Source: Antedon mediterranea
Lineage: Eukaryota; Echinodermata; Crinoidea; Comatulida; Antedonidae
Reading direction: 5' to 3'
DNA length: 64,000 nucleotides
Assembly (NCBI RefSeq): GCF_964355755.1
Contig: NC_092680.1
Location: forward strand, 17,523,001-17,587,000
Below are positions 12,101-64,000 of this stretch, piece by piece. Position 1 is the stretch's first letter. Every line of letters begins with the position of its first letter. A model generated the notes under the pieces. That model made no database searches, was not told the origin of the DNA, and saw only the letters and a program-made list of their open reading frames with translations. A program made the position numbers and the translations under genes.

Positions 12101-15100
12101 ACTATGGAAACTGTAACTTGGAATTTAAAAGATGATGGCAGAGCATATGTACAGCAGCCTGTGGATAAAAATGATGCAGTTGCCTGGGAACAAGTAGTAG
12201 CAGCACGAACAGCTTTAGTTGAAGATGTAATAGTTTTTCTTGTTTTTTGTTATGTAAAAGCCGACCTGTAATGTCGTACTGAGCTGTCTTTTATTGTTAT
12301 TTTCCTCATGATTCTATTCGAAAGTCAGATTCTCAACAACTCTAAAAGTTATGTTATTATTATAAGATCATCTCTTGGCATACCATTGAGTTGTGGCCAA
12401 GCCGTTTAAAACAGAAGCACTGCATATCACCGTCATAATAAGCACCGATTCAAGACATAGCTCTGGTGATAGAACATAGTTTTCTCGAATAAGAAAAATT
12501 AGAGGTTCAGTGAACACAATTGGTTTGTGTGCACTTAAAAGAACACAGTGCATCTTTTATAGAGATTTAGGGGATTATCCCAAAGCTCTGGTTCATTTCA
12601 CCCCCATTTGTTAATCACTTTGTGATTGAGCTTACATCCCTACCAGTTACTATTACTTTGTTAGGGAAAGTCATAAGAGTGGCCCTATGTCCCAATGGGA
12701 TGAACAAGTTATACATGCTGGCAAATCATCCTTGAGTTAACACTAAAATGGATATTTTACTAACAAGCATAATTACAAAATTTATTTACAGCTTGTAGAA
12801 TTGGATGAAGAATTTGGTGATAAAGTTTTGGAAACCGATTCATTTGATCCTCTTCAAATTGAAGCTGATGAGGTTGGTATTTTGGTGTTTCAATCAATCA
12901 TTCAATTACAATGAATCATTTTTTTTTTACCATCTTTAATCAGGGTGATCCATCCAGCAATTTCTGATCATTATTGACCCTCAGAGGTTCACAAGACAAT
13001 ATTACACAAGATGCTCTACATAAACAAAGTCTTATTACAAGTCTTTGGGAGTGGAGTTGTAATTTTGTCCTTTAGAAAAAATCCTGATATGTTACGGGAC
13101 TTGATCAATCTATTTTATTTGATTTCATTTATAATCCAATCAATGAGTTGTTATCTAATCAAGTCTAAAGCTCTGTCTAAACTATCAAACTATAGTTTGA
13201 CAAAAATGTGTGATACATGCTCAAATATGGTAGTGATATGCTCAAATATGGTAGTGATATGCTCAAATATGGTAGTGATATGCTCAAATATGGTAGTGAT
13301 ATGCTCAAATGTGGTAGTGATATGCTCAAATATGGCAGTGATATGCTCAAATATGGTAGTGATATGACATCATCATGTCCATATGGGCACATCACATTTT
13401 TTGTCACATAAAGTTTGATTAGTGTGGACAGAGCTTAAAAGTGGAATTGTGGCCTAGTGAAAAGTTGAAATAATATTCAACAGAAAAATATGTACGGCAT
13501 TGAATTTTCTTGCGTGAAGAGTAATACATTCAGTTATTTATTATATAGAAATATGTTTTATTTTATTTATTCGACTTCTCACTAACACAGTTAGTGAAGG
13601 ATCTGGACCAACAGGTGGTAAACACCTCTAAAACGGTCCAGTCCCAATTTGCAAAGTGGCTGTGTGTGACAGTGGCTGTGTTTGTGTGGACTAGTACACC
13701 GGGGTAACCCCCTACTCGTCTCGAAAGATGTACTAGGTTCTTTAAAGTGCGCATGAGCTATGTGTACACTGGACCTACGGTTTATAGTCCTTATCCGAGA
13801 AGACTCGTTCTACCACCAGAACCATGGAGCGAGTGAGCCTCGAACCCTTGCCGATGTTATGGCTACGTAATTACGGTTCCACTGTCTTAACCGCTCGGCC
13901 ACTCACTCGCTCTTCCACTGTCTTAACCGCTCGGCCACTCACTCGCTCTTCCACTGTCTTAACCGCTCGGCCACTCACTCGCTGTGGTTGATTTTATATG
14001 TGTTTGTAAATTGATTTTGCAAGTTGTATGCCGGGCCCTCTACTCTGGGAGAACAGTTTTGTATTGAAGTGGTCAAAAGAATAAATACATTTATTTAATG
14101 ATGTTGAAAGACTTGATTTTGAATTTTGAATATGTAATTCTTTTTATAGTTAAAAGCTGTAATTCGTAGAGTGACATTAGGTCAAGGTGCAGTACCGGTG
14201 TTATGTGGGAGCTCACTTAAGAACAAAGGTGTTCAATTGTTAATGGATGCAGTAATAGACTACCTACCATCACCTCAACAATGCAATCAAGAATTAGTGT
14301 ACGTTTATATACTATAAATTATATTTAATTGTAAGGCGCCTCTGTGTATTAAAATATACTTAATAAAAAAAAAAAGATAAAAAAAAGTTATTTTTATTTA
14401 TATCATTTATAAAATAATATTGAATGTTATACTCTTAAAAACAAAATAAAGCCGTTTCGCAGAGAAAAAATCACACTACCCTTTCTACTACAATGCGAAT
14501 GTTCATTGCGTGTCTGCTGAGCTTTTTCGATTTGCATGAATTCGTCATAGCTCATTTCCTGAGCTCCAATTGATTGCCCAATTTTCGCTTCGCAAAAAGT
14601 AGAAACAATTTGAACTATCAATTTTACTAAAGCGAAAACTTTGTCGGACACTGTGATTTAAAAGATGGAAACATGAATGTGTATAAGCTGCCACTTTCGA
14701 TTCACACAAACAATAGCCTAGTGGAAAATCGGCTTATGGATATGTTGTCCTCATAGGCAGATCAGAATCTAAATTGTGAAGAATACAGCACAACAAATAG
14801 AACTCCAGCTTTTAATTTTTATATTTTTTTTGCAATTCGTGGCCCCTACACATCTTCGTCCCTACTTTAAAATCCTGAATTTGTCACCCTACTTTAAATA
14901 TGCATATTTGAACTTCCAGATGGAATTCTGATTGTCTTGTGTGTGTAACATATCAATATCATATAATATTGTTATTCTCTAAATACCAACTTTTTAAATT
15001 TTTTTTCAGAGAATCATTTGATGGCGAATTGTGTGCATATGCTTTTAAGATTGTCCATGACAAACATCGAGGCCCTCTTGTGTTTCTGCGAATCTACTCC

Positions 15101-18100
15101 GGGGAACTCAAACCTCAGTCAGCTTTATATAATTTAAATAGAGGAACAGTGTAAGAATCGCTTTATAATTAAGTTGTTTTTAAAAAATACAATAAAGTAT
15201 GTAAAGTACTATATTTAACTTGAGTGAAGATGAAAATTTGGCTTATAAATGTTGCAAGCAGTGTCTCACTCTCTTTAGTCAGGTGGTGCAAATCTTGTTG
15301 CGGTGGTATAAATATCACGCCAACATTCTCTGTCCACAGTTAATGCTTCTACCATCCTTGTCCATCTATTCTTTATGTCATTTGCCCGTGTTGTTGTTGG
15401 TATTCCTCATTGTCCATCCACTGACCCCTATATTATTTCTATATCAAACCTCCTTGACAAATGGCATGGCTGAAGAATCGCATAATTCTAACTGCCATCT
15501 GCTGTCGTAGCATCATTGCAGTCTTTGTGGTGTCTAGTACCCAGTGATTTGTCTTCCTTGCAGTCCAGGGAACTCGGAGGACTCTTCTATCTACCTACAT
15601 CTCACAAGGCATCAATCTTTTTTGCGGAGATTTAGTCAAAGCCCATGACTCGCATTCATATAAACATTTTTAAAGTTGAAAATTGTTTGTCTCGTAATGC
15701 TATTTAGATAAACCACTAAAATAGAATAAATTTTCTCCGTTTTTTTTCCCTAGAGAGAGAATAAGCCGATTATTAGAGGTATTTGCCGATGAGCATAGGG
15801 AAGTTCACAATATGACCTCTGGTAATATTGCTGTTGCTGTTGGCATGAAACAGGTTTGATGCATTATTTATTACAGCTATAGGAGGTTGAAATCCATATA
15901 ATTTTGCCTTGGCTACTCTTAGACTTAAATGAATTTCACACACTTAAACATAACCTTTGTGGAACCTACGCACTGATATATGATGATAATTAAGATTTAT
16001 ATAGCGCCATATCCGAAATAGCGCTCATGGCACTGTGGACTAATAAGATGTTAACCTTTTCACTAACATTCTTCTCCCCTAAGGGTCACGTCATGTCACC
16101 AGCTGCCAACTAAAGTGCCATTACTTCTGTCCACGACAGTGGCTGTGTGAGCTAGCACACTGGGGTAACCCTTTATTTAGCCATTCGACTTGCTTAAGAT
16201 AAATTGATTGATGTTGTAACACATATCAAAGCCATAGAACCAATATTACTACCTAACCTTTTTTTGGCAACTAATCCTATATTTTTCTTTCTTTAGACAA
16301 TAACAGGGGACACATTGGTTTCCTCAAAATCAAATCTAGCGAAAATCTCAAAGGATACTAAAATACAGTCAAACAGAAAGAGTAAGAAACATTTAGGCCA
16401 AGATGTTAAAGACAAAACAGAAAGGCAATTAGAACTTCTACCAGGCTTAGACATCCCTCAGCCTGTGTTTTTCTGTACTATAGAGGCTCCATCAATGGCT
16501 TATCAAGATGGTAAGCTTACATTCACTACCTTTATAACAAAAGATTTATGTGATTTCTTTTTAGTTTTTATTTCAACATTGCACAAAATTGATGTGTCCA
16601 TCCCATAGAGATAATATAAGCCGAAGGCTAGAGAGCGTACTCCTGGCTAGAAAGCGTACTCCTGACTAGAAAGTGATTTTTTATTGACATAATCTTATTT
16701 TGCTAATCAAATATTTATTACACCATCTTCATATTAAATTCCTAGCTCTTGATAACGCATTGGAATGTATACAAAGAGAAGACCCCAGTTTGCAAGTAAA
16801 AACGGATGAGGAAACTGGGCAAGTTAGTATCCCAAGTAGTTGGTATGCCTAGTAGTTAGTATCCCAAGTAGTTGGTATGCCTAGTAGTTGGTATGCCTAG
16901 TAGTTGGTATGCCTAGTAGTTGGTATGCCTAGTAGTTGGTATGCCTAGTAGTTGGTATGCCTAGTAGTTGGTATGCCAAGTAGTTAGTATCCCAAGTAGT
17001 TGGTATGCCTAGTAGTTGGTATGCCTAGTAGTTGGTATCCCAAGTAGTTGGTATCCCAAGTAGTTGGTATGCCTAGTAGTTAGTATCCCAAGTAGTTGGT
17101 ATCCCAAGTAGTTGGTATCCCAAGTAGTTGGTATGCCTAGTAGTTAGTATCCCAAGTAGTTGGTATGCCTAGTAGTTGATATGCCTAGTAGTTGGTATGC
17201 CTAGTAGTTGGTATGCCTAGTAGTTGGTATGCCTAGTAGTTAGTATCCCAAGTAGTTGGTATGCCTAGTAGTTGGTATGCCTAGTAGTTGGTATCCCAAG
17301 TAGTTAGTATCCCAAGTAGTTGGTATGCCTAGTAGTTGGTATCCCAAGTAGTTGGTATGCCTAGTAGTTGGTATGCCTAGTAGTTGGTATGCCTAGTTGT
17401 TAGTATCCCAAGTAGTTGGTATGCCTAGTAGTTAGTATCCCAAGTAGTTGGTATGCCTAGTAGTTGGTATGCCTAGTTGTTAGTATCCCAAGTAGTTGGT
17501 ATGCCTAGTAGTTAGTATCCCAAGTAGTTAGTATCCCAAGTAGTTGGTATGCCTAGTTGTTAGTATCCCAAGTAGTTGGTATGCCTAGTAGTTAGTATCC
17601 CAAGTAGTTGGTATGCCTAGTAGTTAGTATCCCAAGTAGTTGGTATGCCTAGTAGTTAGTATCCCAAGTAGTTGGTATGCCTAGTTGTTAGTATCCCAAG
17701 TAGTTGGTATGCCTAGTAGTTAGTATCCCAAGTAGTTGGTATGCCTAGTAGTTAGTATCCCAAGTAGTTGGTATGCCTAGTAGTTAGTATCCCAAGTAGT
17801 ACTAATATATGCATTAGATTAAAAATTGTTGTTGGTCACATGTTAATGAAGTCTCCCGATATTCTTTCTTCATGTTAATTATTATTGTTATTATTTATTC
17901 AAGCAAAAGATAAATTTTACAAAATATAATACAAATCACAACACAAGGAATAAATATTAAATCATAGTCACTACACTAGCTGCCAGGAAAGCACAAACGC
18001 AGCCAAAGCCATTGTCACCAATTTAAGTGTGTACCTCTGTTGGTCTCAACAAGATTTGTTGAGGATAAGCAAAGATTCTTTGACTATTAACAAAATGCTG

Positions 18101-21100
18101 AAGGTTGAAATATGGTTGAAAGTCACTCTTTACGTAAAAAGACTAAAATTTATTTTTGTTATCATGCAGACAGTTTTATCAGGAATGGGTGAACTGCACC
18201 TTGAGATAATACATGACAGAATCAAGAAAGAATACAAGATTGATGCTGATCTAGGACCACTACAAATATCATACAGGGAGATGATAACAGAAGAGGTGTC
18301 AGAGCAGTGTAAGTACCATATCATTAACTATGTTCTCTAGCCAGAAATGATCACATTGTTGTCTGTGAGCACTGGTTGGATCTCATTATGATAATCGCAC
18401 TTCACATGATCCTTTAGATGACGACGGTTTCTGACATTTGGAAACAGTATTGCATTAATGGTAGCTGATTCACGATTTTGAAATAAGGTAGATCCAGAGT
18501 CTAAAAATAGTTTTAAAATGAAGTTCTGAACTTATATAGCACACAACTAAACAAGTATGTATTGCAAATAAAAAAAATGTAAACATCTATAAACTTTGAA
18601 AAATTACAATGTTAAATAAGATGGGTATAATAAAATATAATACTATATTAAAATTAAGTTTTCTGCACTGCTCTTCAATTGATTATTTTTATCATTTTAT
18701 AGGTAAATATCTAGTTTATTTTAACCTAGCATGCTTAGCTTGTAGCTTCTGCTTTGTAATTAATGTTTATTTTATATTTACCACAATAAATATTTTTAAT
18801 GTGGTTACCACTGCATTGTTAAACAGCAGTGGAGTGTTCACAGAATTTTACAATGATCATGATCCCAAATTACTATTTTTTATTACAATTAAATGTGCCT
18901 GTCAATGTATTTTTGTCCTTTTTTAGCAACTTTAGAAACAACTATTGGTGAACAATTTCACATGGCTAATATAGGAATGAAGGTGATACCTACCTTCGAA
19001 CTTTCTGTACCTGATTCAGTGGTTTTTCCAGAAGAAAATGACGAATTTGTCTATGATCAGGATGCCATGGATGCTGTGGAGAATGGAGCGTTATCAGCAT
19101 TATCAGCAGGTTAGAACAAACCCTTTTTTTTCTTAAGTATTATTTTCTCAACTAGGCCTAGCGACTAGTATCAGTGCCTAGGCTTAGCTCATTTTTGTGG
19201 CCATCATGCCTAGCCATCAGGCAAATTTCATCTACTACGGTAAGTGGGAATTAATTTCAATTGCGTTTTGTTTTACCCTGTAAATCATACACTGCGATGA
19301 TAAGCACAAACAAATTCGTATTTGTTGCCTTTCTGTAACAATCTCAGCTACAAAACTTTAGCCAAGTTATTATCTTTCAATAGTATGGTAGAACTTGTGT
19401 TCTTTAAACTGATAAATACAGTGTCATGATAGTTTTGATTAATTTTAGGTGTGAAATGGATACTGTATTTGGTAAAACTTGTGTAGTAATTTGTATGTCT
19501 AGCGTCTGGAAATCTTTATGCAGAGGTTGACATTATTGAGCTAACTGAGGATGCGGATGCTTTGATTAAAAACATTGGGTATAAAGTTGGTGAGGCATTT
19601 GCATCTTAATAAAAACATTAATATACAAGTTTTTGTCTTGCTAGGTCCACGGATCAGTGCACAAGTACTAGGTGTTGAGGTAGTCCTTGAGAGCTTACAT
19701 GTTGCTGCTGGTACTTCTCTTGCAATAGTATCAGCTTGTGCAGCAAAGTGTATCCAATCGTGTTTGCAATCTTCGGAATCTGAAGTTTTAGAACCAATGA
19801 TGAATGTCGAGGTAAAATATCGTGTATAAAGCTCTGTCTATACTATCAAACTAGTTTCACAAAAAAAGTGTGATATGACCAAATATGGTAGTGATATGAC
19901 CAAATATGGTAGTGATATGACCAAATATGGTAGTGATATGACCAAATTTGGTAGTGATATAACATCATCATTTCATATAATGAGCACATTACATTTTTTT
20001 GTCACATAAAGTTTGATAGTATATAGACAGAGCTTTAAATGGATAAATCAGTGCTTTAGTCTTCATATAGTCTCACTAAAAGTTTGATATTCCACTTCAC
20101 AAAGCAGACACAAATCCCTTGTCTGATCTGAAGTCATCTGATGCTGATGATCATATAGAGTGCAGTCTACTGTAAATCTCAATTTTCTCGTTTTAAGTTC
20201 AAAATAATGATTTTAGTATGGTATTTCTAGATATGAATAGTAGGGAAAACATTTTAAAATAGTGATTTAGTTAGTCCAGGTGACTTAATTGATTTAAAGT
20301 GATTTTGCCGCAAGTTTAGTTTTAGTTGAATAATATGTTGCAAACTTATTTTTAAGGTTACCACAGATCAAGACCGACTAGGAGCAGTTTTAGGTGACCT
20401 TTCAAAAAGACGAGGTCATATTATTGACATTGAGAATCGGTTAGACTGTAAGGTTGTTGTAGCTAGAACTCCATTGGCCGAGATGCTTGTACGTTTGTCA
20501 TTTTTAACTTGCTTGATTTCCTTTGATGAGTTCCCATAAAAGTGTAACTCTAAATTTCCTTTTTTATTGAAAAAAGTAAATATTTTTCCAGGTTCAGAGA
20601 AAGAGAGAGTTTTTTTTATTTTAGGAAGTCTTTTGATTGGAGGGAATCCTTTAATTGAAGGAAAGGTAGTCCTTAAATTGAAAGGAGTGCTTGAATTTAA
20701 GGAGTGCTTGAATTGAAGGGAGTGCTTAAATTGAAGGGAGTGCTTAAATTGAAGGAGTGCTTAAATTGAAGGGAGTGCTTAAATTGAAGGGAGTGCTTAA
20801 ATTTAGATGGGGGGGGGGGTGTTCTTAAATTGAAGGGAGTGCTTAAATTGAAGGAGTGCTTAAATTGAAGGGAGTGCTTAAATTGAAGGGAGTGCTTAAA
20901 TTTAGGGGGGGGGGGGGGTTCTTAAATTGAAGGGAGTGCTTAAATTGAAGGGAGTTCTTACATTTAGTAGAATCCTTAAATTGAAGGGAGTGCTTAAATT
21001 GAAGAGAGTTCTTAAATTGAATATTATATAATTGGAAGGAGTCCCTTAATTAGAGGTAGCCTTTGAATTGGAGGTGGAGTGCTTAAATATAATTTGAGGT

Positions 21101-21698: not shown

Positions 21699-24600
21699 TC
21701 AAACAGTTGTCTGGCTGAAGGTTGGTCTACTGCAGGTAAAACTGAACTGCAAAATAAAAGAATTTTTAAAGCAAATTAGTAAAAAATAAAACAAACACAA
21801 AGCTACTCCACAGTAGTTTAATATAATTACAACCCAGTTGGTGCAGTACCCGCTGCTTACTTGGGCTCGAATCTAACCACTATAGCGATCAGCTCAAGCT
21901 GGGTGGTCAAGAGGTATGAACGCCAGGCTAGTGATCTTGAGGTCGTGGGTTCGAGTCCCACCCGAGAATTATGTCAAATTACGTCAGAGTAGGGCAAACA
22001 TCTGACAAAAAACAAAAACCTAATCAATTAAATGGCGTTACTTCTCACTACTAACATAGATAATTACTTGAACCACATTTAGGTAACATAACCATTATAA
22101 TTACCTCTGGTTTGTGATACACTTTGTGATATTTATCTACTCTGTATTCATTATTCGATGCATCGTTAATTATTCCAACAAGATTCACCAAACACATCGT
22201 TCCATCCAAAGAACTACATCTTTCACATACTGGACCAAAAAGATACTGATCATCAAAGTAATCCGGATTAAAAGTTTGTAGGATTATTTCTTCAATGAAA
22301 GTATGCATATTCTGTAAGATATTAACTGACTGACTCGGGATTTCCTTTAAAACTGAAAGTTTGATGAGATTTCTATCGTATAAGAAAATACTGCCCGAAG
22401 AAATTGTTTCTGTGTTCATTTGAAACAAACATGTGTCACTTGCTCTGAAATGTGCAAAGTTATAATAGACTTCAAGCCAATCAAAAACTTGGCAGCATTT
22501 TGCAATAAGTCGAAGAAATATAAATTCTAGTAAAACTTCACCAAAATCGAAGTAAAATATGTTAGAAGTATGATTAGAATCAAATTCACCTTGTTGTAAA
22601 TTAATTTTGGGCAATTTGCAAAGAGGACAAAATGTTCCAACTTGATCAACTTGATTAGTTATTGTAAGTGGAAACATCAACTGTGTTCCTACCAAGTACC
22701 GAATCACATAAGGATACACTCTCCAAATTCCTTTCATTCGGCAAATGTGTTCCAATAGTCTACTGTCTACAATCCCTGTTTCCAGTAATCTCTGCCAAAG
22801 ATCAGACACGGCTCTGTTTCTTTTGTGTGGTTCAGGTACATTCACTAATAATTTCAGAATGTCTATTAATATCTGAGGATCACAAACAACATAATTCTGA
22901 AGTAGTTCATCAAGTTCATTGTATATAATGTCTCCGGATTTATCAAAGAAATTCAAAAGATGACGCATCTCATATTTCACAAAGATTTTGCTTGTTAACT
23001 TTAATTCATTTTCAATATCTTTTATACTCACAATAACGGACTGTCTATGTCGAAATCCGTTTAAAGTGTTTTTAAATAATAGGTATTGTACAGAAAACAT
23101 TTCGCAAAAATATTTCAATTGTTTTACTTCATTATATATCCTTTCTCGTAAGATGTTAAGCTCCTTATCAAAGTTGAATGCGTTTTCAATAAAAAAGCAA
23201 AGTCGTCCATTTGGATGAAAAGCAAGCAATCTTGAAAACCTTTTGTAAAGATGTGCATTTACAAATTTATCAAAAGTAGAAAACGCTTTTTCATCACGTA
23301 CACTTCCTCTTCTTGTTCCTACAAGAAACACTACAACATTCTCAATTTCAACATGCATAGCAATAGATTGTAACCAGAATTGTAGCCGTTTAATGTGTCT
23401 ATCAGGATTAGAAATCGCCGCTACAGTGTTGAAAACAACTAAGTATACGCCTTGCTTTGGCATAAACAGATGGTGTGTATTATAGTACATTTCTTGTCCT
23501 GCAAAATCCCATAAACTTAGTCTGGCATCAATGTAACATTCGTTTCGCAGATCTGCTTCCATTGATTTTCTGATATGCACTATTGGTATCGATGACGTCG
23601 ATTTTACTTTCATGTAAGAAAACCATTCGTAGATTATAAACCCCCAGATCGGGGAAATAAATGTCAACAATCTTGACATAGAAAGGCTATTCTCTTTCTC
23701 TAATAGACTCAGAAGGTTAACATTTCCAATTTCCCAACCACACATTTTGCCAATATATATCCCAGCAATAAACCCAATAAATCTTTTAAGAAGGTAGTGC
23801 TGAGGAACATACCCATACGCAACAAATTTTCTTCCTAGAATACCACCATAACATAAGAAAGACACAGTAGAAATAAAACGAAATAATGTACATATGTCAA
23901 CAAAATTATGTCTTTCGAAATATATTGCTACTGTTATAAGCATCGTATTAAGTAGCAATACAATTATCACTTGTTTTCGACTAAGCCTAAATCTTTTGGT
24001 GTGAATGATCCTAAAAATGGCCAATATAGTAATTCCATAAATTGAGAACTCTAAATATTGCATACTGTACAATATCTTAGATATGTGTTCTAGTAAGACT
24101 TCGAGGGAAATTATTTTATGGCTTGGATGTATCATGCAACATAAAGCTATACATATGCCAGTCCTCCCACCTGTAGCCATCAGAACACCGACAAGGAACG
24201 ACCCCAGTCCATACATAAAAACACATGTTATAGCCGTTATGTAAATCACTAAATTTAATTCTATGACCTGTTGCTGGCCAAAATGTGTAGTGCTATCTAT
24301 GAGTACCATACATATAGTATAACCACAGCCAAAGCGATAGGCACTGTGAACATCACAAAATACCGAAAGACAACTGACATAAAACCACGCAACTGGCCCG
24401 AATCCAAATGCAAGTCCACCAAAACAGAACATTACTGTCATAGGCATAATGTGAAACATCACGTAATATGCGTCATGTAATACTTTTTGGATCGAAGCCT
24501 GAGTATCATTTTCAGACGTATTGTTTGCCTTTAACTTATCTTTATTTTTATCCAGTTTAAGCACGCGAGATACAGTCCACCACGCTGCTGAACATTCATA

Positions 24601-24927
24601 ATCTTCTAATGGAGTGTTTGTCACCTCACGCCATTTACTGTTAACATCACTAACGTTCGTCTCAGCAGTGTTTGTTTCTATTCCGATTGTACTAGGCTCT
24701 TCTGGTCGAAATTCTTTACTCTGCAAACGCCTGCAGGTTGACGTTTTCCCGGCACCATGATCACCTAGAATAAGTACCTTCGTTCTGTTAAAAGGTACTT
24801 TTCCTCTTTCTTGGGCTGTTTTGTAAGTGTCTTTAATCTCGGAATCATCTGCTAGAACTCTCAAGTTAAAGCTTCGCTTATAAGATTCAGAACATCCTCT
24901 CAAGTAATTTAATCCTTTCTGTTCCAT
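21699..24927 (-). CDS. Roc-COR GTPase split by a multi-membrane-span insertion, copy 1 (intact)
   Basis: The main exon is 24927-22105 (941 codons). A donor follows KPE (GAG then GTAATT), then a 358-bp intron, an acceptor TTTTGCAG, and a last exon 21746-21699 coding FSFTCSRPTFSQTTV. Total is 956 residues. The P-loop GDHGAGKTST is at 55-64, the switch I-like STIGIET at 79-85 and SLWDFAGQE at 471-479. The usual G4 motif is replaced by VGTRRGS (536-542). Residues ~155-440 between switch I and DFAGQ hold 8-10 hydrophobic segments (for example 157-178, 223-250, 319-337, 343-362, 382-398, 419-437). A COR-like region follows from ~610, with CDPQILIDILKLLVNV and two CxxC motifs (CPLC, CERC). There are no LRRs, kinase domain or signal peptide. 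Roc-COR homology is family knowledge; membrane anchoring and signalling are inferences. TTTATT at 21687 gives an AATAAA on the minus strand. A splice acceptor-like TATATAG upstream of the ATG hints at a 5' UTR exon. Confidence 0.85.
21880..21967 (+). repeat. tRNA-like (SINE head) sequence in intron of copy 1
   Basis: GGGTGGTCAAGAGGTATGA resembles an A box and GTGGGTTCGAGTCCCACCC forms a T arm with a perfect stem. The anticodon arm does not fold properly, so this is more likely a SINE promoter region than a working tRNA gene. Confidence 0.5.
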
Positions 24928-28781: not shown

Positions 28782-31700
28782 TTATTGAAGACTTGTGTCG
28801 GTGAAGGTCATTGGTCTACTGCAGGTAAAACTGAACTGCAAAATAAAAAGAATATTTAATTACATTAAGCAAACGCAAGTTATTGTTGTATGCATACCGG
28901 CATGGTTATTCTATATTATATAACAAAATTACCTTTGATTTACGATAAACTTTGTGATATTCATCTACTCTGTATTCATTTAATGCAAAGACATCGTTAC
29001 GTAATAAAATAAGATTCACCAAACACATCGTTCCATCCAAAGAACTACATCTTTCACACACTGGACCAAAAAGATACTGGTCATGAAAGTAATCCGGATT
29101 AAAAGTTTGTTGGACTATATCTTCAATGAAGATATTAATCTTTCGTATGATAGTAAATGATTGACTCGGGATTTCTTTAGACACTGAAAGTTTGATAAGA
29201 TTTCTATTATACAAGAAAATATTGCCAGAAGAAATTGTTTCAGAGTTTATTTGGAAAAAATATGTGTTACTTGCCCTGAACCATGCACAGTTATAATAGA
29301 TCCTAATCCAATCAAATAAGTGTTGTGATCAATTTTTGGCAATTTGCAAGGAAGACAAAATGTTCCAACTTGATCAACTTGATTAGCTATTGTAAGTGGA
29401 AACAACAACTGTGTTCCCACCAAGTACCGAATAACATAAGGATAAACTCTCCAAATTCCTTTCATTAGACAAATGTGTTCCATTAGTCTACTATCAACAA
29501 TTCCTGTTTCCAGTAATCTCTGCCAAAGATCAGACACGGCTCTGTTTCTTTTGTGTGGTTCAGGTACATTCACTAATAATTTCAGAATGTCTATTAATAC
29601 ATGAGGATCACAAACAACATAATTCTGAAGTAGTTCATCAAGTTCATTGTATATGATATCTCCAGATTTATCAAAGAAATTCAGAAGTTGACGCACCTCA
29701 TATTTCACAAAAGTATTGGTTGTCAACATTAATTCACTTTTAATATCTTTAATACTCACAATCATACATTGTTTGTGACGAAATCCATCTAACGTTTGTT
29801 TAAATAACAAGAATTTTACATAAAACATTTCCCAAAAGTATTTTAATTTTGTTACTTCACTATATATACTTTCTCGTAAGTTGTTGAGCTTCTTATCAAC
29901 TTTCAATGCGTTTTCAATAAAAAAGCAAAGTCGCCTAGCTGGATGAAAAGCAAGCAATCTTGAAAACCTTTTGTAAAGATGTGCATTTACAAATTTATCA
30001 AAAGTAGAAAACGCCTCTTCATCACGCACACTTCCTCTTCTTGTTCCTACAAGAAACACTACAACATTCTCAATATCAACATGCATAGCAATAGATTTTA
30101 ACCAGAATTGTAGCCGTTTAATGTGTCTATGAGGATTAGAAATCGCCTCTACAGCATTGAAAACAGCCAAGTATACGCCTTGCTTTGGCATAAACAGATG
30201 GTGTGTATTATAGTACATTTCTTGTCCTGCAAAATCCCATAAACTTAGTCTGGCGTCAATGTAACATTCGTTTCGTAGATCTGCTTCCATAGATTTTCTG
30301 ATATGCACTATTGGTATTGATGACGTAGTTTTTACTTTCATATAGGAATGCCATTCGTAGATGATAAAACCAGTAATAGGGGCAAAAAATGAAAATAAAT
30401 TAAAGAAATCGTGTGATTTTGAATCGCTATGGTCATCCCTTACATTAATTAAATTGTTCACATGTCTAAATTCCCAACCACACATTTTCGCTAAACATAT
30501 TCCAGCAATAAAACCAATAGCTTTCTTTAAAAAGTAATTTCCAGGTGCATACCCATACGCTTTAACCTCTCTTCCTAAAATAACCCCATACAACATTAAA
30601 AATATTGTTGCAATACAGCAAAATAAACTGCATATGTCAATACAATTGCTCCTTCCGACGTATATTGCTGAAATTATACAAATTATGTTAACTATTAATA
30701 CAATAATTAACTTCATTCGACTAATTGAAAATATTTGAGTCACTCATGCTCCTAAAAATTACAATTATAAAAACGGCAGGAAATAGGAATTTAAGATAAT
30801 ATATTATATTGTAAAGAAATGATGGTTTTTCTAAAAAACTGTCAATGGAAATTACAGTTTGATCTGGATGTACCATAATGTACAATGCTACACAGATACC
30901 AGTCCTACCGCCTGTACTCATAAGAACACCGACAATGAACGAACCAAATCCAAATATGCAGACAACTGTAACAGTAGTCACGTAAATCCAGATATTAAAA
31001 TCTATTTTGTCTATGCTTGCAAACAGTTCCTTCAATTGTGTAGCTCTATCTAAAGCTTGGTTCCCACTAGAACGTAACGCAAGGACGTAAACGCAACGCA
31101 AGCGTTTTAACCAATGAAAAGCGAAGTTATAGACAGTCAGCAATCACAAGCAAATAAGCCATCGCTTGTGATTGATCAATTCACATGCGTTGCGTTACGT
31201 CCTTGCGTTGCGTCGCTAGGAAGAACCACGCTTATGAGGAGCATACATGTAGAATATCTACAACCAAAGCGATATGCACTGTGGACATCGCATAATTATT
31301 GTCATAATACAAATGATGTACAACCACACGACTGGCCTGAACCCAAATGTAAACCCACCCAAACATAGTATAGCCGTAAAAGGGATAATATACCACATTA
31401 AGTAACATGTGTCCTCCAATACTTTTCGCATCAGTGAATTATTACTAGATGAACATTTGCCCTTTGACAACTTATGTTTACCCTGTTTAAGTACACGCGA
31501 TACAGTCCACCACGCTGCTGAACTCTCATAGTCTTCTAGTGGAGTGTTTGTCACTTCAGACCATTTACTATTAACATTACTAACGTTCGCCTCAACAGTG
31601 TTTGTTTCTATTCCGATTGTACTAGGCTCTTCTGGTCGAAAATCCTTTCCTTGTAAACGCCTGCAAGTTGACATTTTCCCGGCACCATGGTCACCAAGAA

Positions 31701-31857
31701 TAAGAACCTTTGTTCTGTTAAATGGTACCTTTCCGTTTTCTTCGGCGGTTTTGTAAACTTCTTTGATCTCAGTATCGTCTGCTAGAACGCGCATGTCTAA
31801 ACTTCTCTTGTACGATTCAGCATATCCTTTCAAGTAACTCAGCCCCCTTTTATCCAT
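28782..31857 (-). pseudogene. Split Roc-COR membrane GTPase, copy 2 (broken)
   Basis: The order of parts matches copy 1: N-terminal G-domain half from 31857, membrane block, DFAGQ half, COR region, donor after KSK (exon edge at 28933), and a last exon 28835-28782 coding FSFTCSRPMTFTDTSLQ. It is disrupted in several ways. An element of about 180 bp is inserted at 31053-31232 in the membrane block. A 1-base frameshift lies near 30735. About 110 bp is deleted near 29325, where the segment between the CxxC motif and the YYN..RAS region is lost. The P-loop reads GDHGAGKMST, so the Thr that binds Mg2+ is Met and the site would be crippled even if the frame were open. A strong acceptor (GTCTTTACAG, about 31920 on the minus strand) upstream of the ATG suggests a 5' UTR exon. 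Confidence 0.88.
31053..31232. mobile_element. MITE inserted in copy 2
   Basis: Comparison with copies 1 and 3 shows that the sequence between CTATCTA and TATGAG-like flanks is extra here. Its ends are inverted (AGCTTGGTTC and GAACCACGCT), followed inside by inverted AACGTAACGCAAGGACGT and its complement. The flanks fit a TA target duplication. No frame is present. Confidence 0.8.
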
Positions 31858-32137
31858 TTTATCCAGTTAAAAAGGTTTTGACATTGTATCTATAGTTAGG
31901 CTTCTCTCACTTATTTTCTGTAAAGACAAAGAAACGATTTTTATCAATACAATTCCTTTTAAATAGTAAACACATTTAATTTTATTTCATTTTATTCTCA
32001 ATATTATTGGTTAAGAGAGAATCTATTTTTTTTATCTATACCAGCAATATCATAATGTTTGTTTTATGTTGTTTGTTATTGTGTATGCTTTTTTATTACT
32101 ACATGTCGCTATGTTAAATGAATTCACAATATTAGCG
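31858..32137. other. Upstream flank of copy 2, nothing further identified
   Basis: This contains the probable 5' UTR acceptor of copy 2 near 31920 and AT-rich sequence. No element or gene is visible. Confidence 0.4.
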
Positions 32138-32945: not shown

Positions 32946-33489
32946 GTCATATACTAATACAATTGAAATTCAAGAATGAGCTTGACGTATCGTATTTACT
33001 TTATTATGGTAAGCAGATTTGTTATTTTAGAGTTTATTATAATAATAATATTCAAAGACCGTGAATTTAGCCTATGCCTATATTGTTCTTCATTGTTTAC
33101 TGTATATTGTTATTCAATGATATTGAGAATAACTTCACTACATGCATGCACTTCCTCCTTTCACGAATCAAATGGTTAGAAACAAATTGAAACTCAATGA
33201 TTCGAAATCAGAGCTCTTCCTGATTTCATATAATAGGCATATTAACTATCTATCTCACCTCAATCTGAAAATAGGTTAGCAAACGATTACTCCGTCCGGC
33301 TCTATTAAAAATATTATATCATGTTTGATAACCAACGTCTGTGAAAAATCATGCTAGTCAGTATAGAACGATTCATTTTCACCTTCGTAATTGAAGTCGA
33401 ATCCGTTGCTTTTTAGGCAGGTGTACTTGTGCACATGTAGTGAGAGCTTTGTTGATTTTATCTTTAAATACCACTTGGGTAGACGAGTA

Positions 33490-40157: not shown

Positions 40158-43100
40158 TCAAACACTTGTCTGGGTGAAGGTGTTTGGTCTACTGCAGGTA
40201 AAACTGAACTGAAAAAAAAACATGTATAAAGAAAATTAGTACATAAGACACAACAAAAGAGTTGTTACATCTCACTTACCAACAGAGAAAATATTAAAGC
40301 AAAACAATATAAACAATAGATATATATTTACCTTTGATTTACAATATACTGTGTGATATTCGTCTACTTTGTATTCATTCCATGTAGAGATTTTATTACT
40401 TATGGCAACAAGATTCACCAAACACATCGTTCCATCCAAAGAACTACATCTATCACATACTGGACCAAAAAGATACTGATCATGAAAGTAATCCGGATTA
40501 AAAGATTGTAGGATTATTTCTTCAATGAAAGTATGCATTTTCCGTAAGATAATAACTGATTCACTAGGGATTACTTTAGACACTGACAGTTTTAATAGAT
40601 TTCTATCATATAAGAAAATACTGCCAGAAGAAATTGTTTCAGTCTTTATTTGAAACAAACATGTTTCACTTGCTCTGAAATATGCACAGTCATAATAGAT
40701 CTTAATCCAATCAAAAACTTCGCAGAATTTTGCAAGAAGTCGAAGAAATATAAATTCTAGTAAGAATTCACCAAAATCGAAAAAAAATATGTCCGAGTTA
40801 TGATAGCTATAATTAAATTCACGTTGTTGTAACTCAAGTTTGGGCAATTTGCAAGGAAGACAAAATGTTCCAACTTGATCAACTTGATTTGTTATTGTAA
40901 GTGGAAACATCAACTGTGTTCCTACCAAGTACCGAATCACATAAGGATAAACTCTCCAAATTCCTTTCATTCGGCAAATGTGTTCTAATAGTCTACTGTC
41001 TATAATTCCTGTTTCCAGTAATCTCTGCCAAAGATCAGATACGAGTCTGTTTCTGTTGTGTGGTTCAGGTACATTCACTAATAGTTTCAGAATGTCTATT
41101 AACATCTGAGGATCACAAACAACATAATTCTGAAGTAGTTCATCAAGTTCATTGTATATGATATCTCCAGATTTATCAAAGAAATTCAAAAGCTGACCCA
41201 CATCAAAGTTCACAATGATTTTGCTTGTCAACTTTAATTCATTTTCAATATCTTTAACACTTACAATAACACACTGTCTATGACGAAATCCATTTAATGT
41301 ATCTTTAAATAATAGGTATTTTAAAGAAAACATTTCGCAAAAGTATTTCAATTTCGAAGTTTCATTATATAATGTTTGTCGCAGGAGGATAAGCTCTTTA
41401 TCAATGTTGAATGAGTTTTCAATAAAAAAGCAAAGTCGTCCACTTGGATGAAAAGCAAGCAATCTTGAAAACCTTTTGTAAAGATGTGCATTTACAAAGG
41501 TATCAAAAGTAGAAAACGCATTTGCATCATGTACACTTTCTCTTCTTGTTCCTACCAGAAAGACTACAACATTCGCAATATCAACATGCATAGCAATAGA
41601 TTGTAACCAGAATTGTAGCCGTTTAATGTGTCTATGGGGATTAGAAATCGCCGCTACAGCGTTGAAAACAACCAAGTATACGCCTTGCTTTGGCATAAAC
41701 AGATGGTGTGTATTATAGTACATTTCTTGTCCTGCAAAATCCCATAAACTAAGTCTTGCGTCAATCAAGCATTCGTTACGCACGTCTGATTTCATCGATT
41801 TCCTGATTTGCACTATTGGTATCGATGACGTATTTTTTACTTTTATGTAGGAATGCCATTCGTAGATAATAAAACCCAAAATTGGTGTAACAACTGACAC
41901 AACTTTAAGCAAATGTCTTGATAAAGAATAGTTATGTTCTTTTTCTAAATTGGTTAGATGGTTAAAATTAAAAAATTCCCAACCACACATTTTGCCAATA
42001 TATATTCCAGCAATAAACCCAATAGTCTTCTTTAAAATATAGTTATCAGGGACATACCCATACGCTACAATCAATCTTCCTAATATAGTCCCACATGCTA
42101 TGAAAAAGGTAATTACTATAAAGCAAAATGAAATACATATCTCGACGAAATTATTACTTCCGAAATAATATAATGCTGCAATGATACAAAATATGTTTAT
42201 CGTGAACAAAATAATCAACTTCCTTCGACTAAGTGAAAATATATTAGTGTGAATTCTCCTAAATATTGCTGATATAATACCGACAGAAATAACAAATTTA
42301 AGGTAAACTAGATTGTCAATAAATGAGAGTTTTTCTAAAAAGTCCTCGATTGAAGTTTGTATTGGATGTACCATAAAACACAATGCCAGACAAATACCAA
42401 TCCTACAACCTACACTGACAAGCATACCAATAAGGAACGAACCAATGCCATACATGCAAACAACCATTACACCTGTTGTGTAAATCATCCATAAGTTCCT
42501 GCTTTGTAAATTTTCGAAATTTTCATTTAATTGTGTAACACTATCTACGAGTACCATCCATATAGAGAATCCACAACCAAAGCGGTAGGCCGTGTGAAAA
42601 TCACATATTCCCATAATACAAATGATGTATATCCACACGACTGGTCCGAACCCGAATGTAAGCCCACCAAAACATAGTATAATAGTGAAAGGGATAATAT
42701 ACAACATTAAATAACATGTGTCTTCCAGTACTTTTCTAATCGATATTCGTTTATTTTTATCAGGCAACACACTTGTCTTATTTGATACCTGTTTACCCTC
42801 TTTGAGTAAACGCGATACTGTCCACCACGCTGCTGAACTTACATAATCTTCCAGTGGAGTACTGGTCACTTCACACCATTTACTATTAACATCACTGACA
42901 TTCGCCTCAACAGTGTTTGTTTCTATTCCGATTGTACTAGGCTCTTCTGGTCGAAATTCCTTTCCATGTAAACGCCTGCAAGTCGAAGTTTTCCCGGCAC
43001 CATGATCACCCAAAAAAAGAATCTTAGTTCTATTGAAAGGTAATTTCCCTCTCTCTCCCGCTGTTTTGTAAGTGTCTTTAACTTCTGTATCATCTGCTAA

Positions 43101-43172
43101 AACTCGCAAGTTAAAACTTCGCTTAAAAGATGCAGTATATCCGGTTAAGTAATTCTGGCCTTTTTTATCCAT
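40158..43172 (-). CDS. Roc-COR GTPase split by a multi-membrane-span insertion, copy 3 (intact)
   Basis: The main exon is 43172-40332 (947 codons). The donor after KSK is followed by a 123-bp intron and a last exon 40208-40158 coding FSFTCSRPNTFTQTSV, giving 963 residues. G motifs are GDHGAGKTST, EEPSTIGIET and LWDFAGQE; the G4 position has VGTRRES. The same 8-10 hydrophobic segments lie between switch I and DFAGQ, and the order of domains is as in copy 1. The linker before the first hydrophobic segment (KQVSNKTSVLPDKNK) and loops in the membrane block differ from copy 1, whereas the stretch around NVPEPH and WQRLLETGI is nearly identical. CxxC pairs are FCLPCKLP and VCDRC. The read-through tail VNIYLLFILF after KSK is intronic. 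An acceptor-like TTGTTACAG upstream suggests a 5' UTR exon. Function is unknown: GTP-dependent membrane signalling is an inference from homology and architecture. Confidence 0.86.
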
Positions 43173-54213: not shown

Positions 54214-57200
54214 CTAGGTGGTTATCCGTCTACTGCATGTGAAACTGAACTGCAAAATTAAAGAATTTTAAAACCAAATTAAGTTATGGTTAAAATAGAG
54301 TATTGATTGTTGTGCGAACTTGACGAAATATTCCCGGAAAACCGCTTGTAGAAGTACAAGTACAAGTCTGTGCGTAATTGTTATTTCCATTACAAAAGTA
54401 TTGCACTTACATCGTACGTTGCAATTATGTTAAGTGGAGAGAAAATGTCACTAAGACCAAAAATATTACTGTTTTCTACCAACATTTCCATTTACCTAAG
54501 GCTGAAGCCTACACAGTAACAACATTATGAAATGTATAATATGTATGTTTTTATTTAACAAACACAGACTCCTATCAGTAGGTCTATTAGTTCTTAAACA
54601 ATTCGAATTACAAAAGAAAAACAAATGTGCACAGAATTGAAATAAATGCAATTACCTCTCGTTCCCGATAAACCTTGTGGTATTCATCCACTCTGTATTC
54701 ATTCAATGCATAAGCATCTTTGCTTATTCCGACAAGATTCACCAAACACATCGTTCCATTCAATGAACTACATCTTTCACACACTGGACCACAAAGATAC
54801 TGATCACGAAAGTAATCCGGGTTAAACGTCTGTAAGATTATTTCTTCAACCGAAGTAAGAATTGTCTGTAAGATATTTACTGACTGACTCGGGACTTCTT
54901 TCGAAACTGAAAGTTTGATGAGATTTCTATCGTATAAGAAAATACTATCGGAAGAAACTGTGTCAGTATTTATTTGGAAAAAACATGTTTCACTTGCTCT
55001 GAACCGTGCACAGTTATAATAAATATTATTCCAATCAAACACATTGCAGCATTTTGCAATAAGTCGAAGAAATACAAATTCCAGTAACATTTCACCAAAA
55101 TCGAAATAAAATATATCAGAAGTATGATCAACATGATCAAGTTCACGTTGTTTTAACTCAATTTTTGGTAATTTGCAAGGAAGACAAAATGTTCCAACTT
55201 GATCAACTTGATTAGTTATTGTAAGTGGAAACATCAACTGTGTTCCTACCAAGTACCGAATCACATAAGGATACACTCTCCAAATTCCTTTCATTCGGCA
55301 AATGTGTTCTAAAAGTCTACTGTCTACAATTCCTGTTTCCAGCAATCTCTGCCAAAGATCAGATACGAGTCTGTTTCTGTTGTGTGGTTCTGGTACATTC
55401 ACTAATAATTTCAGAATATCTATTAATACCCGAGGATCACAAACAACATAATTCTGAAGTAGTTCATCAACTTCATTGTATATAATGTCTCCGGATTTAT
55501 CAAAAAAATTCAGAATTTCGCGCACCTCATATTCCATAAAGATTTTTCTTGTTAACTTTAATTCATTTACAATATCGTTTACACTCACAATAATACACTG
55601 TCTATGTCGAAATCCATTTAAAGTGTTTTTAAATAATAAGTATTTTACAGAAAACATTTCGCAAAAATATTTCAATCTTGTTACTTCATTATATATCCTT
55701 TCTCGTAAGATGTTAAGCTCATTGTCAACATTAAATGCGTTTTCAATAAAAAAGCAAAGTCGTCCACTTGGATGAAAAGCAAGTAATCTTGAAAACCTTT
55801 TGTAAAGATGTGCATTTACAAATCTCTCAAAGGTGGAAAACGCATTTCCATCACGTACACTTTCTCTTCTTGTTCCTACAAGAAACACTACAACATTCTC
55901 AATATCAACATGCATAGCAATAGATTGTAACCAGAATTGAAGCCGTTTAATATGTCTATCAGGATTAGAAATCGCTGCTACAGCATTGAAAACAACCAAG
56001 TATACGCCTTGCTTTGGCATAAACAGATGGTGTGTATTATAGTACATTTCTTGTCCTGCAAAATCCCATAAACTTAGCCTGGCGTCAATGTAACATTCGT
56101 TTCGTAGATCTGCTTTCATTGATTTTCTAATATGCACTACTGTTATTGATGACGTAGTTTTTACTTTCATGTAAGAATGCCACTCGTAGATAATAAAACC
56201 CAAAATCGGTGCAGCAAATGACAACATTTTAAGCAAATATTTAGAAAAGTCTTTCTCTACGTTAGTTAGATGGTCAAAATTGTCAAATTTCCAACCACAC
56301 ATTCTGCCAATATAAATCCCAGCAATAAACCCAATAACCTTTTTAAAAAGGTAGTGTTCAGGGAAATAGTCATACGCCACAAATTTCCTTCCTATAAAAA
56401 CTCCACAAATTATAAAAAACACCAATGAAATAAAGCAAAACAATGTAAATATGTCTACAAAATTATGGCTTCCCAAATATATTGCTGTTGTTATAAGCAT
56501 TACATTTAGTATAAATACAAGGACAAACTTTCTTCGACTAAGTGAAAATATTTTGGTATGCATACTTCTAAAAATAACTATTAAAATAACTGCAGCAATC
56601 ACAAACTCAATGTATATTATATTGTAAATGAATGATATTTTTTCTAAAAAACATCAGTAGAAATAATATTCTGTTTTGGATGTACCATGAGACAAAAAGC
56701 TAAACAAATACCAGTCCTACCACCTGCACTCATAAGCACACCAACAAGGAACGAACCCAACCCATACAAGCAAACGACCATAACAACAGTCATATAAAGC
56801 CATATATTTAACTCAACGACAGGTTGCTGAGCAAATGTTTCATTCAATTGTGTTGCACTGTCTATGAATACCATACATATTGCGTACCCACATCCAAAGC
56901 GATAGGCACTGTGAACACCAAAAATTCTTGAAAGATAAATAATGTATAACCATGCAACTGGTCCGAACCCGAAAGAAAGTCCACCAAACCAGAAAATTAC
57001 AGTCATAGGAATAAACTGAAACAGCAGGTAAGTTATGTCCTCAAATATTTTTCGGATCGAAACATTTACATCATTATCAGATTTATTTATTTATTATGTT
57101 TGCTCTGTTTAAGAACACGCGATACTGTCCACCACGCTGCTGAACTTTCATAATCTTCTAAAGGAGTGTTTGTTACCTCACACCATTTACTATTAACATC

Positions 57201-57479
57201 ACTGACTTTCGCCTGAACTGTGTTTGTTTCTATTCCGATTGTACTAGGCTCTTCTGGCCGAAAATCTTTGTCTTGAAAACGCCTGCAAGTCGACGTTTTT
57301 CCTGCACCATGATCACCCAGAATAAGAACCTTGGTTCTGTTAAATGGTACTTTTCCTCTTTCTTGAGCAGTTTTGTAAACTTCTTTAATCTCAGTATCGT
57401 CTGCTAAAACTCGCATATTAAAACTTCGCTTGAAAGACTCAGCACATCCTCTCAAGTAATTCAATTGGTTTTGCTCCAT
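54214..57479 (-). pseudogene. Split Roc-COR membrane GTPase, copy 4 (two frameshifts)
   Basis: The N-terminal part (57479-57087) has the intact P-loop GDHGAGKTST. It meets a stop in the linker, where a TTTA repeat (57082-57094) appears expanded: removing 8 bp would restore the frame. The membrane block runs from 57006 and is broken again near 56648 by a missing base relative to copy 2. After that, 56602-54656 is open and holds the later membrane segments, DFAGQE, VGTRRES and the full COR region. The donor follows REREx (exon edge 54656), and the last exon 54249-54214 codes only FSFTCSRRITT before a stop. Because both lesions are small and sit in or next to simple sequence, this may be a young pseudogene, a polymorphic null allele or an assembly error. 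It could still be a gene in other individuals. Confidence 0.8.
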
Positions 57480-57579
57480 CTCATTGGACTATCTCTAACT
57501 TGTCTGAGTAGCATCAAATCTTGTATTATATAAAATAATGTCAATATTAACATTAACAACTAAAAAGAAATTGATATTG

Positions 57580-61928: not shown

Positions 61929-64000
61929 TCAAATAGCAACTTGTCTAGTGGTTATCGGTCTACTGCATGTAAAACTAAACTGTAAAATTAAAGCATTTTA
62001 AAATCAAGTTAGGTTAAAATAAGTATATTTACAGTGCATGTAATTTGTTCACGCGAATCCAACGTTTCAAAGAGAAAAAATCGCCTACTCTCTTTTCCAC
62101 TACATGAACGAATAGCTGCGACGTTCATGTTCTTCTCGCGTGGTTGCTGAGCTTTTCGATTTGCTCATGAAAGCGTCATAGGTCATGTCCTGATCTCTGA
62201 TTAGTTGCGCAATATTTCGCTTCGCAAAAAGTTGAAACAATTCGAACTAGTAAATTTCGCTGCAGCAAAAATCAAGGAACTAGAATTCGTCGCAGAAAGG
62301 GAGTATGACAAACAAAAACTCGAATACGCATGCGTAGAGCATAATTCAATTCAATTCAATTCAATTAAAACTTTATTATCCCCATGGGGAAACTCTGTTG
62401 GCCTTTTCAAAAGTACAGTACATACAAATATAAAATGGATACAGTACATAAAATATAAATACGATAAAAAAAGACGCTTTCGATTCGCGCGAACAAATTC
62501 GCCTAGTGGAAAATCAGCTTTAGACAATTATAATAAAGAGAACGGAACCATTAGGAAACTATTATCATCGCGAAAGCTATTTATTTTGGGTTTTGGGACT
62601 AATGTATAGGTCCATGCTGCTCGACCCAAAGTACGTCTGTGAAAAGAGACGAAGACTCACGGTTAAACGATTTTGGATTCTCATCCTTTGATTGGTTGAC
62701 GCAAATCAACACACTGCGGAAAAAAATGTTCTCACGTGTCGTGAAGTCACGTGTCTCTGAGGATGTTCAATACACGGGAAAATAATGTATCAAAACGAGC
62801 GGCGTTTTTTTTGTAAGAAATATTTCTTCTTTATCACCAATCAACAGTAGGGTTGTATTTCTGATACGTTTACGTTTACGTTTACGTTTACTCGACAATA
62901 TTAATGTATTTAAATGTCAAGTACATCAATATAATTTTAAAATGTTATGGAATAATTACGTAAATGTTGGTTTCACCATACAGTATAAAAATAGTGAAAC
63001 TGCATCGTGCATTGTAATTATGTTATGTTAATACGAGTGAAAACGTTGCTGAAACTAAAAACGTTGCTATGTTTTTCAAAAAATTTCCTTTCCCGTAAAA
63101 TGTGGCCTACTGTTTGTAAAACACAATTTGCAATGCTACTAATATGTCTGTTTTCACTTAGCAAACAAAAAACAGACTTACATTAACGGTGTTACATCTT
63201 ACTACAGAGAACAAAAATCAAAATAAATATATTTACCTCTGGTTTACGATACACTTTGTGATGTGCATCTACTCTGTATTCATTCAATGCAGAGACATCG
63301 TTACTTAATGTAATAAGATTCACCAAACACATTGTTCCATCCAAAGAACTACATCTTTCACACACTGGACCACAAATATACTGATCATGAAAGTAATCCG
63401 GATTAAAAGTCTGTTCGATTATTCCTTCAATCGAATTAAGAATTGTCTGTAAGATATTAACTGACTGACTCGGAATTTCTTTAGACACTGACAGTTTGAT
63501 CAGATTTCTATCATAAAAGAAAATACTGCCAGAAGAAACTGTGTCAGTGTTTATTTGAAAAAAGCAGGTGTCACTTGCTCTGAATCGTGCACAGTTATAA
63601 TAAATATTATTCCAATCAAATACTTGGCAGCATTTTGCAATAAGTCGAAGAAATACAAACTCCAGTAACATTTCACCAAAATCGAAATAAAAAATATCAG
63701 AAGTACAATCAATATACTCAAATTCACGTTGTTGTAAATCAATTTTGGGCAATTTGCAAGGAAGACAAAATGTTCCAACTTGATCAACTTGATTAGTTAT
63801 TGTAAGTGGAAACATCAACTGTGTTCCAACCAAGTACCGAATCACATAAGGATAAACTCTCCAAATTCCTTTCATTCGGCAAATGTGTTCCAATAGTCTA
63901 CTGTCTACAATCCCTGTTTCTTGTAATCGCTGCCAAAGATCAGATAAAGCTCTGTTTCTTTTGTGTGGTTCAGGTACATTCACTAATAATTTCAGAATGT
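61929..64000 (-). CDS. Split Roc-COR membrane GTPase, copy 5 (partial, window edge)
   Basis: The frame is open from the window edge at 64000 down to 63237. It covers the COR region from ILKLLVNVPEPHKRN to YRKPE, with CxxC pairs FCLPC and VCERC. A donor (GAG then GTAAAT) is followed by a 1257-bp intron and a last exon 61979-61929 coding FSFTCSRPITTRQVAI. The intron is longer than in the other copies and contains a MITE-like repeat (62048-62525) with a nested retroelement tail. The G domain and membrane block lie beyond the window, so whether the gene is intact cannot be judged. The seen part has no lesion. Confidence 0.85.
62048..62525. mobile_element. MITE-like repeat in intron of copy 5, relative of 14440-14735
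   Basis: It shares GAGAAAAAATCGCC, TTCGCTTCGCAAAAAGTTG and CCTAGTGGAAAATC with 14440-14735. GTTCACGCGAATCCAA at the left and TTCGATTCGCGCGAAC at the right are inverted relative to each other. A retroelement-type tail (ATTCAATTCAATTCAATT then CTTTATTATCCCCATGGGG, 62344-62390) is nested inside. Confidence 0.55.
62526..63236. other. Remainder of copy 5 intron
   Basis: No gene is visible. About four units of TTTACG occur at 62868-62891. The rest is AT-rich unique sequence. Confidence 0.5.

Follow-up and report, generated by a model that had tools for sequence, protein, structure and literature searches.

The window, a stretch of 64,000 nucleotides of the Antedon mediterranea genome (C11:17523001-17587000; genome of 354 Mb in 18 contigs), carries five copies of one gene in differing states of preservation (Table 1). 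The main exon of copy 1 ends in ..CCAGAG at the splice donor GTAATT, and donor and acceptor set the frame of a short last coding exon as FSFTCSR; the alternative frame SVLPAVDQ was rejected. With this exon added, the predicted products of copies 1 and 3 reach 956 (941+15) and 963 (947+16) residues, the lengths that an earlier note on this DNA had assigned to them. A PDZ-ligand C terminus (TTV in copy 1, TSV in copy 3) was dropped as a family feature, T-[TS]-[VL] occurring in 5 of 14 last exons. A short open reading frame at 61581-61775 (minus strand) contains the family remnants SSMPIVYIRKS and HVDIENVVV and is probably a further degraded copy. Elsewhere in the window, exons matching GTP_EFTU, EFG_III and EFG_C, with EF-G_D2 just below the cut-off, lie at 9652-20539 (plus strand) and probably form a gene of the mitochondrial EF-G type; a minisatellite-like tandem repeat with several open frames (CKPTPKH / LVKSPLQTNTKT type) occupies 32221-32957, between copies 2 and 3; and a 332-residue open reading frame at 48577-49575 (plus strand) with a zf-RVT match is a retrotransposon fragment.

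Table 1 Features of the window and related loci in the same genome. Positions are those of the window unless a contig or locus is named; residues use copy 1 numbering.
Feature	Position	Strand	Description
Copy 1 main coding exon	22105..24927	-	941 open codons; split Roc, membrane block and COR-like region
Copy 1 G domain, first half	24652..24795	-	residues 45-92
Copy 1 P-loop GDHGAGKTST	24736-24765	-	residues 55-64
Copy 1 switch I EPSTIGIET	24673-24699	-	residues 77-85
Copy 1 conserved soluble pre-block segment	24553..24672	-	residues 86-125, ..VSDVNSKW..SAAWW..; low dN/dS, invariant columns (alignment A3)
Copy 1 variable linker	24472..24552	-	residues 126-152
Copy 1 membrane block	23620..24471	-	residues ~153-436; ~10 hydrophobic segments by manual assignment
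Copy 1 G domain, second half	23128..23532	-	residues 466-600; G3 DFAGQ (474-478), G4 VGTRRG
Copy 1 COR-like region	22588..23127	-	residues 601-780
Copy 1 last coding exon, predicted	21699..21746	-	FSFTCSRPTFSQTTV stop; from splice sites and conservation
Copy 2, broken	28906..31866	-	pieces in differing frames; P-loop GDHGAGKMST
Copy 3 main coding exon, open	40332..43172	-	947 codons
Copy 3 last coding exon, predicted	40158..40208	-	FSFTCSRPNTFTQTSV stop
Copy 4, broken	54608..57488	-	three open pieces
Copy 5, 3' part of main exon	63192..64000	-	cut by window end; fully open in the genome as L023
L009-L014, L016, L018, L019	C11, 4.57-4.65 Mb		family members, as are copies 1 and 3
L020	C4		family member
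L021, L022	C11, 19.23-19.24 Mb		family members
L023, L025			family members; L023 is the whole of copy 5
L031 (C3)	L031:4851-6497	-	second family; 548 residues as translated; family match E = 6.5e-10
L032 (C1)	L032:4925-6544	-	second family; 539 residues as translated; family match E = 2.1e-4

In hmmscan searches, the Pfam Roc family matches both open copies in two stretches (E = 1.1e-20 in copy 1 and 1.1e-19 in copy 3). The genome-wide scan places the two stretches of copy 1 at profile positions 1-50 and then 37-117; judged by these coordinates, the pieces are complementary and overlap in the interswitch. The P-loop GDHGAGKTST and the motif STIGIET precede, and DFAGQ and the rest of the G domain follow, a hydrophobic block of ~285 residues, in the positions that the earlier note had reported. 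About 70 soluble residues, which the earlier note had passed over, precede the block in copy 1.

Aligned with the Roc domain of LRRK2, residues 42-85 of copy 1 correspond to chain residues 15-60 and residues 458-562 to chain residues 65-163, with 372 residues of copy 1 facing 4 of LRRK2 at the insertion site. This site we take, from secondary-structure labels, to lie past switch I/beta2 and ahead of beta3. The interswitch (beta2-beta3) is the edge hairpin of the G fold, and an insert at this place, which would amount to an exceptionally large hairpin insertion, does not require the two halves to come together across the bilayer. The earlier proposal of a nucleotide site put together from two tethered halves therefore stands in that the G domain is truly split, but no assembly across the membrane has to be invoked. 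Either of two stretches of copy 1, ~83-95 or ~447-455, could be the real beta2, as both are beta2-like in sequence. The Roc match of L034, an LRR-Roc gene elsewhere in the genome, runs uninterrupted over profile positions 2-119. The Roc exon of another gene (L036:4321-4704, plus strand), whose P-loop exon was not found, encodes 60-70 mostly polar residues directly ahead of IWDFAGQ, hinting that the interswitch of other Roc genes here tolerates soluble insertions.

A protein search of the same genome gave at least 44 matches to the family protein, among them 16 members whose main frame stays open for 850 residues or more; manual grouping adds about seven broken or partial loci. PF08477 (Roc) matches all 16 (best E 4.2e-21), and the genome-wide scan lists both Roc halves in every one with the same split point. 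All share one order within a single exon, namely P-loop half, soluble segment, membrane block, second G half and COR-like region, with a G2-G3 spacing of ~390 residues. Fifteen of the 16 keep their frame as far as the splice donor; the exception, L022, shifts frame ~20 codons before the donor and was retained in the alignments with a misaligned tail. The short last exon was found in 14 members (all except L014 and L020) and reads F.(F/L)(T/K)C.R.. in 13 of these automatically, that of L023 having been read by eye.

Members were chosen by open-frame length, which makes openness a selection criterion but leaves dN/dS independent of the choice. We calculated dN/dS by the Nei-Gojobori method over all 16 members (in brackets, without L021 and L022), excluding saturated pairs, which left 105-120 of 120 and 90-91 of 91 pairs, depending on region. 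The first G half gave 0.118 (0.152), the pre-membrane segment (residues 91-125) 0.094 (0.101), the linker (residues 126-150) 0.739 (0.735), the membrane block 0.384 (0.364), the second G half 0.162 (0.276), the COR-like region 0.215 (0.286) and the C-terminal part 0.276 (0.347). The values of the block indicate that it is translated and constrained, less so than the G domain, and the split noticed in the window is thereby borne out across a family of 16 genes. Within the block, outer loops show no excess of change (0.354, against 0.358 in helices and 0.346 in inner loops) and thus no sign of positive selection.

These data bear on two readings under which the architecture would be spurious. 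The block could be an unspliced or retained intron-like insertion, the real protein being an ordinary soluble Roc-COR protein, and in two small GTPases of this genome (L027 and L028) an intron does appear to separate the P-loop part from the G3 part. However, a block dN/dS of 0.36-0.38, 45 invariant columns in alignment A2 (16 sequences) and an order conserved in a second family at ~24% identity, described below, make this reading highly improbable. We give equally little credence to an origin of the copies as open reading frames of a mobile element or virus, or as an artefact of assembly. The tandem arrangement and the broken or partial loci would fit such an origin, but the genes are under purifying selection, keep their splice donor (15/16) and last exon (14/16) and lie on two contigs (C11 and C4). 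Searches of viral, phage and prokaryote contig collections, which have no bearing on other animals, returned no relatives.

The topology of the block was approached in several ways. The earlier note had counted 8-10 hydrophobic segments; manual assignment agrees with about ten, but hydropathy gives seven windows on the family average and, at a stricter cut-off, three to six per member. An AlphaFold model (pLDDT 31, no residue above 50), computed from a 9-row alignment of window sequences only, with the unrepaired pieces of copies 2 and 4 among them, places 11 helices across residues 139-442, to be taken as a hint only. One of them, helix 275-288 (LEVLLEHISKILYS), was dropped as a membrane span for being too charged, and ten remain. 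If the ten segments are arranged with the N terminus inside, the K+R frequency per loop residue is 0.178 for inside and 0.070 for outside loops, with the inside count the higher in 16 of 16 members, a comparison that is partly circular in that segments were assigned manually. A dynamic-programming topology score, which likewise rewards K+R inside, preferred the N terminus inside in 16, 15, 16 and 16 of 16 members at four parameter settings; copy 1 separates the two orientations little, its best score at one setting being 25.8 with the N terminus inside and 24.9 with it outside. The same settings preferred an even helix number in 16, 10, 13 and 12 of 16, with small margins in copy 1. Two outer loops contain glycosylation sequons, one in 5 and the other in 7 of the 16 members, but 14 members have them in the N-terminal stretch assigned to the inside as well, so that they do not discriminate between topologies. 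On these predictions, an arrangement with both G halves on one side of the membrane is favoured, in keeping with the positive-inside counts and with what the earlier note supposed. The even number of spans that the note deemed necessary is favoured too, in copy 1 by small margins, and the exact helix number is uncertain.

No PDB profile matches the block at E ≤ 10. At the same threshold in Pfam, copy 1 matches no family and no family is matched in more than one of the 16 members. As it matches no known family, no ligand or activity can be named for it. Seven charged residues in or beside hydrophobic segments are invariant in all 16 members (Asp192, Arg198, Asp211, Arg255, Arg366, Lys381 and Glu434 in copy 1 numbering). 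Together with the ~10 segments, these residues could suit a block that is itself a transporter or channel, for which the split Roc domain would serve as a regulatory lid, with nucleotide state controlling transport rather than being controlled by it. We regard this reading as rather unlikely: no transporter is matched by sequence in Pfam or the PDB, and comparison of the two halves of the block finds no internal repeat (hhalign E = 0.095 and 0.15).

Canonical G4 motifs are NKxD or THxD, and that of LRRK2 is THLD. In the family, GxxxxGK[ST], the switch-I Thr and DF[AS]GQ are kept in 16 of 16 members, while the guanine-specifying Asp of G4 is lost in 14, replaced by Gly in nine and by Glu in five; only L021 and L022 keep it (TRRD). 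The contiguous G1-G5 with NKxD/THxD at G4 by which Roco proteins are delimited are thus not found in this family. With the Asp gone in 14 of 16, GTP specificity or binding may be lost. We infer from the motif distribution that GTP specificity was ancestral and was later relaxed in the expanded clusters; loss of nucleotide specificity is just as possible.

Two further genes, L031 and L032, form a second family, of which residues 40-548 align with residues 47-609 of the main family (hhalign E = 1.7e-15, 488 columns, ~24% identity) across both G halves and the block. Their P-loops are degenerate (GDSTSDKY in L031, GDSRSGKY in L032), their G3 region reads WEF in place of WDFAGQ, and they end where the COR-like region would start. 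Pfam finds nothing significant in either, and a genome search with the L031 protein brought up no additional gene like it. The split order is common to both families, which implies that the inserted architecture predates their divergence, and its presence in genes that have lost their nucleotide motifs implies that it can exist without a working switch. By sequence, L031 and L032 would be membrane pseudo-GTPases.

The main family might likewise be a membrane-anchored pseudo-GTPase scaffold, in which the G fold is retained for structural reasons and for assembly through COR, nucleotide switching being slight or absent. The missing G4 Asp in 14 of 16 members points that way, as does the architecture kept in L031 and L032 despite degenerate P-loops and WEF. 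Against it, the P-loop Lys-Thr, the switch-I Thr and the Gln of DxxGQ are invariant in 16 of 16, and the dN/dS of the first G half (0.12-0.15) is stricter than expected of a scaffold; we consider the idea rather unlikely, though worth keeping in view.

The region after the Roc domain we term COR-like. Pfam COR-A matches it in copy 1 at E = 0.0013, with 19.1 bits against a cut-off of 35.3, and in 15 of 16 members at E ≤ 0.1, the best match (E = 6e-4) being sub-threshold as well. A COR exon of L036 that itself passes the COR-A cut-off (E = 4.2e-10) is similar both to the COR-like region in BLASTP (E = 5e-8) and to the family profile in hhalign (E = 1.4e-5, 31% over 55 columns). Searched alone, the COR-like region has no significant PDB match (best E 0.63, unrelated).

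The soluble and membrane parts of the genes appear to have different histories. For pairs from clusters A and B, whether of one cluster or across the two, the median dS comes to 0.71-0.77 in the block and 0.18-0.21 in the second G half plus COR-like region, and the soluble part has the lower value in 74 of 78 of these pairs. Comparison with L021 and L022 reverses the order (block 1.26-1.36, soluble part 1.95-2.05, near saturation). With L020 on C4 both parts are alike (0.79 and 0.72 from A; 0.71 and 0.74 from B), which argues against generally slow silent sites in the soluble part. The trees of the two parts conflict: L014 joins copy 3 in that of the block (support 1.000) and L012/L013 in that of the soluble part (support 0.983). 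These sequence comparisons are most simply read as gene conversion of the soluble part; the alternative is that older blocks were reshuffled onto a younger chassis. Clusters that lie 13 Mb apart still show a dS of ~0.2 in the soluble part against ~0.7 in the block. That the membrane part is diverse and the soluble part uniform suggests that many inputs feed one output, but the dN/dS values bear no mark of positive selection.

Roco proteins, which include DAPK1 and MFHAS1, are the closest known relatives in layout: as in LRRK2, the best PDB match, and in bacterial Roco, a Roc G domain is followed by a COR-like region. They differ in that here the block lies inside the interswitch, the Pfam scan finds no LRR or kinase, and the G4 Asp is mostly lost. 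We found no description of a membrane-interrupted Roc domain in a literature search of partial coverage, and the word 'transmembrane' occurs 0 times in a review of Roco proteins (PMC6337361). The earlier claim that Roc-COR proteins are soluble or linked to LRRs or kinases was nevertheless too strong, as excerpts of two reports describe C-terminal regions homologous to transmembrane proteins in brown-algal ROCO proteins (PMC4104024) and TLRs with Roc and COR in Aplysia (PMC9334734). Both resemble the present family in combining Roc-COR with membrane segments; in the excerpted descriptions, however, their membrane parts lie outside the G domain, and insertions in the brown-algal ROC are characterised there as non-conserved sequence.

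The present placement has a parallel in the KAP NTPases, for which Aravind et al. (2004) are said to have described membrane segments within the P-loop NTPase domain. In the excerpted literature, Kidins220 has four TM segments in its KAP-NTPase domain (PMC4632323), and KAP ATPases are grouped together with AAA+ and STAND (PMC9599734). The likeness to KAP (Kidins220/ARMS), with segments that are predicted here, is one of analogy rather than membership: KAP proteins belong, on those descriptions, with AAA+/STAND rather than with Ras-like G domains, and Kidins220 has four TM segments against about ten here. No KAP family is found among the Pfam matches of the 16 members (E ≤ 0.1) or the window copies (E ≤ 1), which match Roc instead. 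On this sequence evidence we would place the family as a variant of Roc(-COR) proteins, not of KAP.

A second parallel is offered by Arf proteins, which use an N-terminal amphipathic helix; we know of no insertion in the Arf interswitch. Fourteen of the 16 members have a weak Pfam match to Arf, which in copy 1 falls on the first G half. According to the excerpted accounts, the interswitch toggle of Arf/Arl couples nucleotide state to membrane binding (PMC4635315, PMC7817177), and what we propose here would similarly tie membrane contact to nucleotide state through the interswitch hairpin.

Weighing these observations, we lean towards reading the genes as a lineage-expanded family of membrane-embedded, membrane-gated Roc-COR switch proteins, best understood, by analogy, as switches comparable in mechanism to KAP NTPases and the Arf interswitch toggle. 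A polytopic bundle, most likely of ten helices with both ends cytosolic, would be inserted in the Roc interswitch hairpin, and the two G halves would refold side by side on the cytosolic face. The bundle would be directly attached at switch I/beta2 on one side and at beta3 on the other; these strands are the ones that shift in Arf-type proteins, and from this attachment we infer the direction of coupling: a conformational change in the bundle, caused by a ligand, lipid, ion or partner, would shift the interswitch and so alter the nucleotide state. COR couples to Roc in Roco proteins, and the attached COR-like region could read out that change, giving these proteins a signalling role. More tentatively, it is possible that the bundle acts as its own exchange or activating factor, the whole being a G switch built onto a polytopic membrane receptor or transporter, with the signalling half kept uniform by conversion and the membrane half diversifying into many inputs.

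If the halves form one G domain, the protein would be a signalling GTPase without a separable membrane receptor, in which membrane conformation and nucleotide state make up a single mechanical unit. It would offer a clean system for interswitch control of nucleotide exchange in Roc, with a bearing on LRRK2, and it brings its own comparisons in 16 members with differing blocks on a near-identical chassis and two relatives with degenerate nucleotide motifs. A decayed relative, by eye nearest the L021/L022 type, lies on C5 at 15.885-15.889 Mb (L029/L030), with retrotransposon-like open reading frames between its pieces.
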